Shown: positions 6,205 to 29,098 of the stretch, piece by piece | Layout: each line of letters begins with the position of its first letter | Position numbering within the stretch: position 1 is the stretch's first letter | NCBI GenBank assembly: GCA_003136315.1 | Contig: PLDW01000325.1 | Coordinates: forward strand, 930 to 41,026 | From: Gemmataceae bacterium | GTDB lineage: Bacteria > Planctomycetota > Planctomycetia > Gemmatales > Gemmataceae | Direction of reading: 5' to 3' | Length of the DNA stretch: 40,097 bases | Notes under the pieces: model-generated | The model's input: only the letters and a program-made list of their open reading frames with translations | Told to the model about the DNA's origin: nothing | The model's database searches: none | Program-made: the position numbers and the translations under genes

Positions 6205-6652
6205 AGCGGCGGTGTCGAGGAGAGGAGCCACTTCTGGGTCAGCCTGTATGGCCCGCAGACTCGCTGAACTGCTAAACAGTCCGTTGACGCCAAGGGCTCT
6301 CGACCGTTTGTTGTCTCCCGATCGACCTCGGCTGCTTCCTGGTGTACAACCTCCTCCAGGTATGGGTTCTTGCACCCACGGGAACAATCACACCTTCACG
6401 ACGCACGTCGCAGCGCTTAGCTGGGGATCGGACGCAGCCCTACCCCCGGCGGCGTAGGCGAGCACACCAACGACACGACCACGGCAGACCCGTCCGCTCT
6501 GGACCAAGGGGTGTCCACCAACGGTGGTGTCCCCTGTCGTTCGCGTTTGCCCGCCGGGTGTCGCTGCGCTCAACCCCCGGCTACACGCTTCGACCCCGCT
6601 GGGTCGACTGGCGGTTGGGACGGGGAACTATCCGGGCCCGACCGGTTACCCC
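6205..6652. other. Convergent gap with palindromic sequences
   Basis: There is no supported gene between the DUF3592 gene and the convergent kinase gene. Several short palindromes occur. GCCGGG (6553-6558) pairs with CCCGGC (6576-6581), CGACCC (6591-6596) with GGGTCG (6601-6606) around a CGCT loop, and CCACC with GGTGG near 6517-6530. They may act as terminators for the two converging genes and resemble degraded intergenic repeats. No T-tract follows any of them. Confidence 0.5.
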
Positions 6653-10534: not shown

Positions 10535-11107
10535 TTAATCGATTAGCCCCTCAGCTTCCCTGCGGAACCGATTCAGCACCCGACTCTTGGCGATCCGTAC
10601 GGCGTTTGGGGTAATGCCAAGCCGGTCCGCGACATCGCTCGTCGGCAGGTCTTCGAGGACGAGTAGCCGAAACGCTTGCCAGGTGGCCGGTTCGAACTCG
10701 GGTTCGATCAACTCCAGGAGCCGCCGGGCAACGTGCCGATCGTGTTCCTCGTCCCAGATCCGACTCAGGTTACTGGACGGGTCTTCGAGTTGTGCGAGAA
10801 CGGGTTCGGGGTCCAACCCGCTTGAGCGGTCTCTGGCCCGCCAGAAGTTGCGGAGCCGGTTGACGGTCACCGTCCGCAGCCAGCGGCGGAAGGCACCGCG
10901 ACGGAAATCATGCTGAAAGCCGGGAAGTTCGCGGACAATCGCGGCGAGTACCTCCTGGGCGACGTCATCGACGTCCGAGGGCTGCAACCCATAGCGGACC
11001 ACCCACGCCCGGATCAATGGGGTGTACAGGTCCAGGAGTCTGCGCCAGGAAGTTGGGTCCGGGTGGGTGCGAAGCCGTTCGAGCAAGCTGACGGGAGTTT
11101 CGCTCAC
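10535..11107 (-). CDS. ECF-family RNA polymerase sigma factor
   Basis: This is a 190-residue sigma-70-family factor of the extracytoplasmic-function type. Region 2 is visible as LLDLYTPLIRAWVVRYGLQPSDVDDVAQEVLAAIVRELPGF followed by FRRWLRTVTVNRLRNFWR. Region 4 is the C-terminal helix-turn-helix DVADRLGITPNAVRIAKSRVLNRF. I chose GTG 11107 because planctomycete relatives begin close to SLLERLR. Upstream in-frame TTG and GTG codons, to 11221, would add up to 38 residues that look unconserved, and no candidate has a strong ribosome-binding site. It heads a minus-strand cluster with the zinc-ribbon membrane protein and the zinc-finger kinase. That neighbourhood fits the pattern in which ECF factors are controlled by co-encoded Ser/Thr kinases. 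Its target promoters cannot be read from this window. Confidence 0.92.
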   Translation of the reverse strand: MSETPVSLLERLRTHPDPTSWRRLLDLYTPLIRAWVVRYGLQPSDVDDVAQEVLAAIVRELPGFQHDFRRGAFRRWLRTVTVNRLRNFWRARDRSSGLDPEPVLAQLEDPSSNLSRIWDEEHDRHVARRLLELIEPEFEPATWQAFRLLVLEDLPTSDVADRLGITPNAVRIAKSRVLNRFRREAEGLID

Positions 11108-11313
11108 GGCGGGGGAGTTGGCTCGTGTGTCGTTGGGCGGCGATAGGATCAGTTTCGGCAGGGTGCGACGCGGCGTCAAGTTCACCGTCCGTTGCGTCGC
11201 TTCCCGTTCAAAATCGGGCAAGGTTCAGATCGTTGTCGAGTGCCGCCCGGCACGAGCACAGATCCGCCACCGTTGAACCCCGTAGCGATCAGGCCGCCTT
11301 GACTTCAACTTTT

Positions 11314-27930: not shown

Positions 27931-27963
27931 GGGAGCCGTCCGGAAATGACCGAGCACGGTTGT

Positions 27964-28066
27964 GGGTGCCACGGGCGGCTCGTCCGCCCGTGAAGGCGTT
28001 ACACTGGCGGACAATCCGTCCGGGGCACCCGATCCCCCGGACAATCCGCCCGTGGCACCCAATCCC
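27964..28066. repeat. REP-like palindromic and direct repeat
   Basis: A perfect 15-nt inverted repeat, GGGTGCCACGGGCGG (27964-27978) and its complement (28046-28060), brackets the element. Its left arm also forms a hairpin, ACGGGCGG (27971-27978) with CCGCCCGT (27984-27991). The right half holds two direct repeats of 28 nt, starting at 28009 and 28039, of the form GGACAATCCG-CCG-GGCACCC. Confidence 0.8.
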
Positions 28067-28267
28067 GCTGGTCGATTTTCTCCCGCCGCATGCCTAACCC
28101 CACCCCTGCGGAACACTTCAGGTTCTCCCCACCGGAACTCGTCGGCCGAGGTTCAGGTCTTGGGGGGGTTCGATTCTCCGCTGAACCCGTCTACCCTGAA
28201 CAGCAGACGGTTACCGCAGTGTGCCACTCGCGCGAACCCGCGAGGGCGCGGGAGCGTCTCTAAACCG

Positions 28268-28371
28268 TCAGCCGCCGCCCCACCGTCGGGGCCTACACGC
28301 AACCCCCTTTCGTAGAGGGTTCAGTCTGAAAGCTGAACTGCAACGTGGCACCGCAAACTTGCGGCGGTTGA
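28268..28371 (+). ncRNA. Structured element, unit A (candidate RNA or folded DNA)
   Basis: The outer stem pairs 28268-28278 (TCAGCCGCCGC) with 28361-28371, 11 pairs with one G-U. An internal loop has CCCACCGT on the left (28279-28286) and CAAACTT on the right (28354-28360). An inner stem pairs 28287-28293 (CGGGGCC) with 28347-28353 with one mismatch. Inside are the single-strand TACAC (28294-28298), a hairpin CCCTTT/AGAGGG (28305-28319) and a hairpin TTCAG/CTGAA (28320-28337). Strand is assumed from the orphan gene downstream. Confidence 0.5.
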
Positions 28372-28388
28372 CTTGGTCTCATTCAAAC

Positions 28389-28489
28389 CGCCCGCTGCCC
28401 AACCGGCGAAGCTTACACACCTTTCTTTCAGAGAGAGTCTCGTGTTCGGCCTGTCAGGCCGAATTCGCTTCGCGAACTTGCAGCGGGCG
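28389..28489 (+). ncRNA. Structured element, unit B (candidate RNA or folded DNA)
   Basis: The outer stem is a perfect 10-bp match of CGCCCGCTGC (28389-28398) with 28480-28489. The internal loop reads CCAACCG (28399-28405) and GAACTT (28474-28479), almost as in unit A. The inner stem is a perfect 7-bp match of GCGAAGC (28406-28412) with GCTTCGC (28467-28473). TACAC recurs (28414-28418). A weak hairpin CTTTC/GAGAG and a strong one, TTCGGCCT (28445-28452) with AGGCCGAA (28456-28463), complete the fold. The stems differ in sequence from unit A, but the pairings and loops are kept. Confidence 0.5.
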
Positions 28490-28528
28490 ACTTTTTCGGA
28501 GGAGTCTCCCGTAACTCCGCGTGCCGAC

Positions 28529-29098
28529 ATGAACGACCCGATCCCGCATCCTGCTTTGCTCAACACCTGGAAACACCATGCCGGCTGGATTCGCTGGCGG
28601 ATCACTCAGGCGGTGAGTGCGGGTCTGGCGGGTGTCGAGGCGCTTCCGACGGAGATGGCCGTTGTCGGAGCCCGCCTCATGGACCTCTACACCGGCCCTC
28701 TTTCCCCCTCAACCATCGGGACCACCCTCATCGCTCACCTCAGCGGGCTTGGACGGGTCGAGTACGCGAGTCTCGTCGAGTGGCTCCAGGAGCAGGGCGA
28801 GTATGCCCTGCACGAACTCCCGGACGGATCGAAGTGGACGATCCGACTCGGTCCGTCGGACGGCCGCTACTTGCACCTTCATCCTGGCCGGTGGGTGCCG
28901 AATACGATGCGGGTCCAGGCAAACACGCTCAAGTCTGCCGTGATGGCTCACGCTCACGCGGGATTGATCCGCAGCGATCCGGCCGACCTCGCTGTGGTGA
29001 ACGCGGCCCGACGCAACTACCTCGGGCTCCTGCCAGTGCGCGAACTCACCGGCGACGGCGGGCTCGGGGCGGTGATCGAAGCGTTGCGGGCAAGTTGA
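28529..29098 (+). CDS. Orphan protein, function unknown
   Basis: This 189-residue protein is not one I recognise. It appears to be an all-cytoplasmic alpha/beta protein with no signal or membrane segment. It opens HPALLNTWKHHAGWIRWRITQAV, has a small central beta region (YALHELPDGSKWTIRLGPSDGRYLHLHPGRW), then helices TLKSAVMAHAHAGLI and VVNAARRNYLGLLPVREL. Trp and His are frequent. Codon use fits the neighbouring genes. ATG 28529 is chosen because the longer in-frame extension to 28373 would be translated from structured unit B. The nearest purine-rich site, GGAGGAG, is 24 nt away, so initiation is unusual or regulated. It converges with the response-regulator gene, leaving 19 bp between them. 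Confidence 0.72.
   Translation: MNDPIPHPALLNTWKHHAGWIRWRITQAVSAGLAGVEALPTEMAVVGARLMDLYTGPLSPSTIGTTLIAHLSGLGRVEYASLVEWLQEQGEYALHELPDGSKWTIRLGPSDGRYLHLHPGRWVPNTMRVQANTLKSAVMAHAHAGLIRSDPADLAVVNAARRNYLGLLPVRELTGDGGLGAVIEALRAS

Follow-up and report, generated by a model that had tools for sequence, protein, structure and literature searches.

Tandem Y-type RNAs lacking a tRNA-like domain, probable partners of a diverged Ro60, in a Gemmataceae genome

Introduction

The closest described counterparts of the RNAs reported here are the Y RNAs. Rsr is reported to bind YrlA at its basal stem, and PNPase to bind the tRNA-like domain of this RNA to form RYPER, which acts on structured RNA; the Y RNA is also reported to gate access to Ro60 (PMC8394870, PMC4726728, PMC7790460). 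One of these papers also states that loss of Ro60 lowers Y RNA levels, and that in vertebrate Y RNAs the Ro60 site is a lower stem with bulges, the loop domains varying among members (PMC4726728). Our literature search, which was thin on subscription journals, found no papers on Y RNAs in planctomycetes.

Here, we analyzed a stretch of 40,097 nucleotides (the window) from a Gemmataceae bacterium (assembly GCA_003136315.1, contig PLDW01000325.1, positions 930 to 41,026 of the forward strand). A preliminary description of the window had pointed to a tandem structured element upstream of an orphan gene, and had offered three readings of it, namely a tandem riboswitch-type regulator of that gene, a free pair of non-coding RNAs, or a DNA element that acts when single-stranded. 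We propose that the two units are probably Y-type RNAs of a diverged Ro60. What we call new is a tandem Y-type RNA that has no tRNA-like domain, lies away from the Ro60-like locus and has a probable promoter of its own.

Results

Two tandem units with a common fold

The element consists of two units, U1 and U2, with the following parts.

28268-28371, plus strand: U1, first unit, a probable Y-type RNA (from fold, alignment and a match of covariance model R3 at 28263-28376)
28389-28489, plus strand: U2, second unit, a probable Y-type RNA (from fold, alignment and an R3 match at 28382-28496)
28268-28278 with 28361-28371, plus strand: outer stem of U1, 11 bp
28389-28398 with 28480-28489, plus strand: outer stem of U2, 10 bp
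28279-28285 (CCCACCG) opposite 28355-28360 (AAACTT), plus strand: internal loop of U1, from the sequence
28399-28405 (CCAACCG) opposite 28474-28479 (GAACTT), plus strand: internal loop of U2, from the sequence
28286-28292 with 28348-28354, plus strand: inner stem of U1, two of seven pairs non-standard
28406-28412 with 28467-28473, plus strand: inner stem of U2, 7 bp
28294-28298 (U1) and 28414-28418 (U2), plus strand: TACAC strand after the inner stem, from the sequence

Direct reading, alignment and folding against shuffled sequences confirmed that two units folding alike lie 121 nt apart from start to start, and U1 and U2 are homologous to each other. The preliminary description was correct in the coordinates and anatomy of the 10-11 bp outer stems, the CCMACCG/RAACTT loops and the TACAC strand. 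The 7-bp inner stem that it gave to both units is found in U2, whereas in U1 a G.A pair and, outermost, a U.C pair replace standard pairs. The distal part of each unit consists of two hairpins. None of 200 shuffles of U2 was equally stable (folding z -6.39), four of 200 were so for U1 (z -2.42), and none of 100 was as stable as the 336-nt region around the units (z -4.51). The reverse complements of U1 and U2 fold too (z -1.49 and -4.89, respectively). Because both strands fold, the strand of the RNA had to come from homologues.

Homologous RNAs in related genomes

Three covariance models were used: R1, built from U1 and U2 alone; R2, from 13 U-type RNAs; and R3, from 14 RNAs adjacent to genes for a Ro60-like protein (Ro-adjacent RNAs), no window sequence being included in the last. 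The search of planctomycete genomes with such a model, which the preliminary description had suggested, found homologues, many of them adjoining Ro60-like genes. R1 gave matches at E<=1 in 13 of the 95 genomes of the family, and genome-wide and local searches together yielded a convincing U-type RNA in 11 genomes: G000 (the genome of the window), G092, G012, G016, G019, G020, G023, G027, G028, G030 and G043. The U-type RNA of G092 is likewise tandem. The U-type set comprises 13 of 18 R1 matches; L021 was moved to the Ro-adjacent set, and L015, L016, L017 and L020, weak and unconvincing by eye, were excluded. The Ro-adjacent set comprises 14 of 16 matches, the two excluded being L075:3045-3127 (another hairpin) and that of G010 (a near copy of those of G012 and G009).

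R1 located RNAs beside the Ro60-like genes of G030, G043, G088, G019, G011, G000, G012, G010, G009 and G092 (one listed for each), and several in G094 (three), G027 (two) and G020 (two, one of them at E 0.49). The Ro60-like locus of the window's own genome, G000:C201, was matched in the genome-wide R1 search at E 0.0116. The exact loop pattern was also tried as a finder; it matched three of the 95 family genomes, with the window's own U2 genuine and the hits in G011 and G045 unrelated by eye, and it was abandoned.

Searched with R3 on both strands, the window gave just two matches at E<=10, namely U2 (28382-28496, 60.9 bits, E 6.6e-16) and U1 (28263-28376, 34.0 bits, E 2.6e-8). Run directly on the loci, R3 recovered 13 of 13 U-type RNAs, all at E<=3.9e-4 and with the second unit of G092 as the weakest; this reverse test is not fully independent, because the 14 training RNAs were chosen by R1, which was made from U1 and U2. 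At 13 Ro60-like loci that had no convincing R1 match, R3 found RNAs in five, with as many as four consecutive copies at L075, and none in eight.

When R3 was searched over the 95 genomes under stricter filters, it listed 84 matches, distributed among 29 genomes, and recovered 5 of the 13 U-type RNAs. Forty-eight of the 84 (14 of them training sequences) are no more than 2.5 kb away from a Ro60-like gene, and all 48 share its strand; they are spread over 17 genomes, with at least two copies in 15 and at least three in 11. Two further matches adjoin canonical TROVE genes. Six of the 29 genomes have no Ro60-like match, and in two of these six the RNA adjoins a canonical TROVE gene. The window's own genome has five R3 matches, three in a row by the Ro60-like gene on contig C201, and U1 and U2 on C215.

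In 294 planctomycete genomes sampled from the phylum, R2 matched six at E<=0.1. The best matches besides the own genome, those of G228 (E 8.3e-5; distance 1.3 kb) and G354 (E 1.9e-4; distance 0.3 kb), are close to full-length Ro60-like genes; the remaining three, L176 among them, look like chance. Besides that of the own genome, the sample holds five full-length Ro60-like genes, and a local search found an RNA at three of them (G228, G354 and G334) and none at those of G138 and G240. Of the further R2 matches, two are unsupported: R3 does not match G026:C292, and it matches G034:C125 at E 0.14.

Additional members of the scaffold lie on small contigs and do not enter the alignment counts: G043:C183:385-493 (L145; R3 E 1.2e-14), which bears a T-arm-like hairpin, and G030:C1423:432-561 (L146; R3 E 3.1e-9). 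Arrays of two to four Y-type RNAs were seen upstream of Ro60-like genes (G000:C201:11943-12471, which is L070, and L075, L084, L082, L086 and L090). The distal modules differ in these arrays; in some, the T arm is preceded by an additional hairpin that resembles a long variable arm.

Covariation of the stems

Across the 13 full-length U-type RNAs, 89.9% of cells pair, compared with 77.1% in shuffles. Changes on both sides occur in 13 of 19 pairs, a count reached by 1 of 500 shuffles, and the covariation score is 0.495, compared with 0.245 in shuffles (0 of 500 reach the observed score) and at most 0.147 in slid controls. For 27 core sequences (arms only), the fraction of pairing cells is 86.7%, against 65.4% in shuffles, and the covariation score is 0.639, against 0.249 in shuffles (again reached by 0 of 500) and at most 0.147 in slid controls; both-side changes in 16 of 19 pairs are a weak measure by themselves here, being equalled by 11 of 500 shuffles. 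The stem sequences also differ between the two RNA classes (GCAGCGG and GTACGGG). The pairing figures flatter the structure, because the homologues are interrelated and were found with structure-containing models. Given the slid controls and the differing stem sequences of the two classes, however, the conclusion of covariation is in our view safe. Thus, the earlier claim that the structure is under selection, with stems that differ and yet pair, is borne out on the homologues; the preliminary description would have been refuted by a lack of homologues with covarying stems elsewhere, and such homologues exist.

A Ro60-like protein that tracks the RNA

The Ro60-like protein (496 residues in the data) is encoded in G043 by a frame whose end lies some ten bases upstream of the U-type RNA. 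It matched the Pfam family vWA_Ro60 (PF25045) at E 5e-4 with 20.5 bits against a cut-off of 27.7, and neither PF05731 nor PF25045 exceeded its curated cut-off in the Ro60-like protein. The AlphaFold2 model of the G043 protein is of middling quality (pLDDT 77.7, pTM 0.57). In a Foldseek search with this model, the top 12 PDB matches were all Ro60, Rsr or TROVE structures (E 1.1e-11 to 1.9e-8, TM 0.37-0.47, alignments of 471-536 columns), and the model itself has, at middling confidence, the helical-repeat part and the C-terminal vWA domain of the Ro60 fold. An hmmsearch of PDB sequences with the Ro60-like profile gave two TROVE proteins at E 0.0039, and hhalign of the profile with one TROVE stretch gave a weak match (probability 11.8%). 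D319, S321 and S323 are invariant across 16 Ro60-like sequences. We take the protein as a diverged Ro60 ortholog, an assignment suggested by its predicted structure.

Relatives of the Ro60-like protein were found in 25 of the 95 genomes, and 24 were used to assess co-occurrence: G005 (a fragment, E 1.9e-4) was excluded, and G028, where the protein was found in pieces, and G031 were counted although their matches are in pieces. The protein is present in 11 of 11 U-type genomes, compared with 24 of 95 overall (Fisher 3e-8); in 13 of the 24, no U-type RNA was found. The gene of the window's own genome is located at G000:C201:10280-11821, on a contig other than that of U1 and U2. We also considered canonical TROVE (PF05731) as the partner. 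It occurs in 15 of the 95 genomes but in just 3 of the 11 U-type genomes (Fisher 0.24), and none was found in G000. Since canonical TROVE fails to track the RNA, the diverged Ro60-like protein is preferred.

Lack of the tRNA-like domain

In the RNA found at G000:C201, a permuted tRNA-like insert has its T arm ahead of the D arm. A YrlA match from Rfam, at 26.1 bits, overlaps this RNA, which raised the question of Ro60. The Rfam family YrlA is RF02553, with a gathering threshold of 69 bits. In an Rfam search at E<=0.5 that covered 10 of 20 Ro60-like loci, YrlA overlapped several Ro-adjacent RNAs below that threshold, the best at 51.6 bits, and such sub-threshold scores are unspecific, being seen in 6 of 14 control genomes too. 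The YrlA consensus runs from the outer stem through the 3' loop aAaAcUuG, the inner stem and CUAc to a tRNA-like module, which is the order of the Ro-adjacent RNAs. The module of the third Ro-adjacent RNA in G094 scores as an ordinary tRNA (52.5 bits against a cut-off of 29). Of 199 genomes in the phylum sample, three contain YrlA above threshold. At 13 loci with YrlA matches outside the family (L101-L107 and L109-L114, three of them above the gathering score), R2 gave no match, and R3 picks up three canonical YrlA weakly, by way of the tRNA-like part.

A T-arm motif is present in 11 of 14 Ro-adjacent RNAs, compared with 0 of 13 U-type RNAs. Rfam searched over 28150-28560 at E<=10 gave three chance-level matches, none of them overlapping U1 or U2, and none by YrlA on either unit; judged by the T-arm motif, the units lack the tRNA-like domain of YrlA (T arm, D arm and acceptor-like stem). 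Given the lack of this domain, we file U1 and U2 as a Y-type variant without a tRNA mimic and not as YrlA. They do conform to a broad sense of Y RNA, both in structure, with 5' and 3' ends joined in a conserved stem, an internal-loop site and a variable distal part, and in homology, with R3 matches and a presumed Ro60 ortholog in the same genome. The element had been called apparently undescribed; this applies to the variant, which is absent from Rfam, but not to its kind, which is known and whose Ro-adjacent homologues match YrlA below threshold. The statement that the loops fit no riboswitch or ribozyme class agrees with the lack of Rfam matches on the units.

The scaffold was also seen with an unpermuted tRNA-like domain and an anticodon-like arm, away from Ro60-like genes, at L137 (G011:C1:557759-557897) and L149 (G019:C36:19029-19169). 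R3 matches of similar length, also away from Ro60-like genes, lie in G009:C4, G010:C1:8288629, G012:C1:7843431, G016:C14, G020:C1065 and G023:C2:1022177.

Transcription signals and the orphan gene

The units are flanked by the following features.

28234-28259, plus strand: putative ECF-sigma-type promoter, GAACC (-35-like), spacer and GCGTCT (-10-like), a motif found in related loci
28490-28496, plus strand: T-rich run (ACTTTTT) following the G+C-rich outer stem of U2, a possible terminator, from the sequence
28529-29098, plus strand: P0001, an orphan gene of 189 aa, the open reading frame downstream of U2

A motif GAACC-N14..18-[ACG][GA]TC[CTG] begins 27-30 bases before the aligned RNA start (first units) in 8 of 11 loci and was not found in those of G030, G043 and G028; no more than 3.9% of the dinucleotide shuffles of any locus contain it, the expression having been written after inspection of the loci. 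This motif resembles the consensus of ECF-sigma promoters, and its assignment to that type is putative. Six of the 11 loci have a separate G+C-rich hairpin with a T-run downstream of the RNA; there is none in the window, G092, G030 and G043, and that of G028 is very weak and was not counted. The place of the hairpin is taken in both the window and G092 by the second unit, which ends in a T-rich run. Judged by the promoter motif and the terminator-like ends, the RNA seems to be transcribed as a unit of its own, upstream of the orphan gene, and the ECF-like motif suggests, on sequence grounds, that expression may be stress-controlled.

Several other features of the window were recorded. A sigma factor gene of ECF-like size lies at 10535-11221 on the minus strand (Sigma70_r2, with region 4 just under cut-off), and protein kinase genes lie elsewhere in the window. 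Upstream of the promoter motif, at 28148-28185, lies a hairpin whose 7-bp stem (GGTTCAG/CTGAACC) is acceptor-like and whose loop resembles that of a T arm; its best Rfam match is mascRNA, at 18.5 bits against 42.5, which is probably chance, though odd near relatives of tRNA mimics. A 24-nt inverted repeat (27963-27986 and 28038-28061, 92% complementary) separates U1 from a frame that carries a PEP-CTERM motif, and a 29-nt direct repeat (28008-28036 and 28038-28066) overlaps it. The sole Rfam match in the window at gathering score is the group II intron family D1-D4-4, at 6242-6381 on the minus strand (52.1 bits against 49); no reverse transcriptase was found among 14 window frames scanned with Pfam.

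P0001 matched no Pfam family over cut-off and no NCBIfam family. Its AlphaFold2 model is confident (pLDDT 93.3) and matched no PDB fold at E<=0.001. Homologues are widespread (121 confirmed loci, 80 of which were kept), with records from Planctomycetota, Bacteroidota (e.g. Pontibacter and Chitinophaga), Ignavibacteria, Herpetosiphonaceae and Myxococcales. The frames near the relatives at L200 and L192 (ABC transporter, MacB/FtsX, pentapeptide and pyridine-nucleotide-disulphide oxidoreductase) are uninformative, and the frame ending upstream of the P0001 homologue in L032, L034 and L035 (G090, G045 and G006), judged by eye, is presumably that of an RlmI-type rRNA methyltransferase-like protein.

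Could the RNA be a leader of P0001, acting in cis by attenuation, by ligand binding as a tandem riboswitch, or through binding of the Ro60-like protein that controls read-through? A P0001 homologue does lie directly downstream of the U-type RNA, on the same strand, in 8 of the 11 genomes, and it is the next gene in five of the six loci that have a hairpin and T-run behind the RNA (in the sixth, that of G012, it is 20 kb from the RNA). However, we consider such a leader unlikely. The U-type RNA is found away from P0001 not only in G012 but also in G043, where it lies just after the Ro60-like gene, and in G028, where it precedes a frame that by eye looks carbamoyl-phosphate-synthase-like; its homologues adjoin Ro60-like genes; and R2, tested against 30 of the 80 loci of P0001 homologues, gave strong matches in just six Planctomycetota records (that of the isolate CJuql4, LR594584.1, being one; a further match of 12.6 bits was ignored) and none at the loci tested in other phyla. 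A reading after the glycine riboswitch is further weakened by the varied neighbor genes, by the 48 of 84 R3 matches near Ro60-like genes and by the multiple copies that are common there. With the positions of the hits checked, the tandem riboswitch-type regulator of the preliminary description thus lost ground, as the same type of RNA adjoins different genes. Riboswitch or ribozyme was also rejected as a class for the units, on which Rfam places no class and whose neighbors are not constant. In G030, the U-type RNA also lies just after the Ro60-like gene, and the Ro60-like gene, the RNA and the P0001 homologue are contiguous in that order, which suggests that the three were perhaps once together.

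Another possibility is that P0001, not the Ro60-like protein, is the partner of the RNA, as a separate RNP or a toxin-antitoxin-like pair on a borrowed Y RNA scaffold. The adjacency in 8 of 11 genomes counts in its favor, as do the co-occurrence of P0001 with the U-type RNA in 10 of 11 genomes (Fisher 9e-8) and a U-type distal module that is unlike that of most Ro-adjacent RNAs. Nevertheless, we regard it as distinctly unlikely: P0001 is widespread, and the loci tested outside Planctomycetota lack the RNA; G043 has the RNA and no P0001 homologue; and what is conserved in the RNA is what it has in common with the Ro-adjacent RNAs.

Finally, an element that acts as single-stranded DNA, whether an attC- or REP-like repeat or the end of a mobile element, is hardly credible although both strands fold and the copies are in tandem, given that blastn of the pair in its own genome matches the pair itself alone, that all 48 family members near Ro60-like genes lie on the strand of those genes, that the modules read as tRNA-like on that same strand, and that no attC core was seen by eye.

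Discussion

Among the readings offered in the preliminary description, the free pair of non-coding RNAs is thus the best supported. We put at roughly 0.8 the probability that U1 and U2 are free RNAs of the Y type, bound by the Ro60-like protein at the outer stem and internal loop and with the effector domain exchanged. The common scaffold would comprise a closed outer stem, a CCSACSG-like loop opposite a RAACTTG-like one, an inner stem and a TACAMAC strand. The Ro60-like protein encoded at G000:C201, with three more Y-type RNAs alongside, would hold U1 and U2 in the way that Rsr/Ro60 grips the lower stem of known Y RNAs. We infer this hold because the conserved part of U1 and U2 is the part common to the Ro-adjacent RNAs. 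The distal part would be an exchangeable module, mostly tRNA-like beside Ro60-like genes and represented by two short hairpins in U1 and U2. With the tRNA mimic gone, tethering of PNPase through that domain is not expected, and a Ro particle containing U1 or U2 may gate or tether something else, perhaps the product of P0001.

These observations suggest that a second type of Ro RNA particle exists. We also suggest, very tentatively, a modular Ro RNP in which one diverged Ro60 would serve a panel of Y-type RNAs with permuted tRNA, unpermuted tRNA or hairpin effectors, U1 and U2 being an ECF-driven class without a tRNA mimic that would recruit or control P0001 instead of PNPase. If this speculation is true, then a stress signal would change what the Ro particle does. 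Within a single genome, the copies retain the presumed Ro-binding scaffold but vary in their effector, a natural experiment that separates the two, and this clade bears on the functions of bacterial Y RNAs other than linking Ro60 to PNPase. In addition, a Ro60 ortholog missed by Pfam cut-offs would mean that the spread of bacterial Ro RNPs may be underestimated; covariance models are now able to find Y-type RNAs of this sort.

Comparison with known systems

Like the tandem aptamers of the glycine riboswitch, U1 and U2 are a pair of similar structured units that precede a gene; unlike that riboswitch, they have no Rfam match, and their relatives adjoin Ro60-like and unrelated genes. The likeness to YrlA (Salmonella; compare the DrY RNA of Deinococcus) extends to the end stem with an internal loop, the inner stem and the distal effector module, and both are encoded in genomes with a Ro60/Rsr ortholog, in our case the presumed one. 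In contrast to YrlA, U1 and U2 have two hairpins and no tRNA-like domain, are not located at the Ro60-like locus and have no Rfam match; their 5' loop is CCSACSG-like, whereas that of the YrlA of other planctomycetes is CGAATGC-like (by eye). The Ro60 site of human Y RNAs, CCGA opposite ACUUGA, resembles CCSACSG opposite RAACTTG, a likeness between motifs. With the vertebrate Y RNAs hY1, hY3, hY4 and hY5, U1 and U2 share a site in the lower stem, predicted in our case, and a loop domain that varies.
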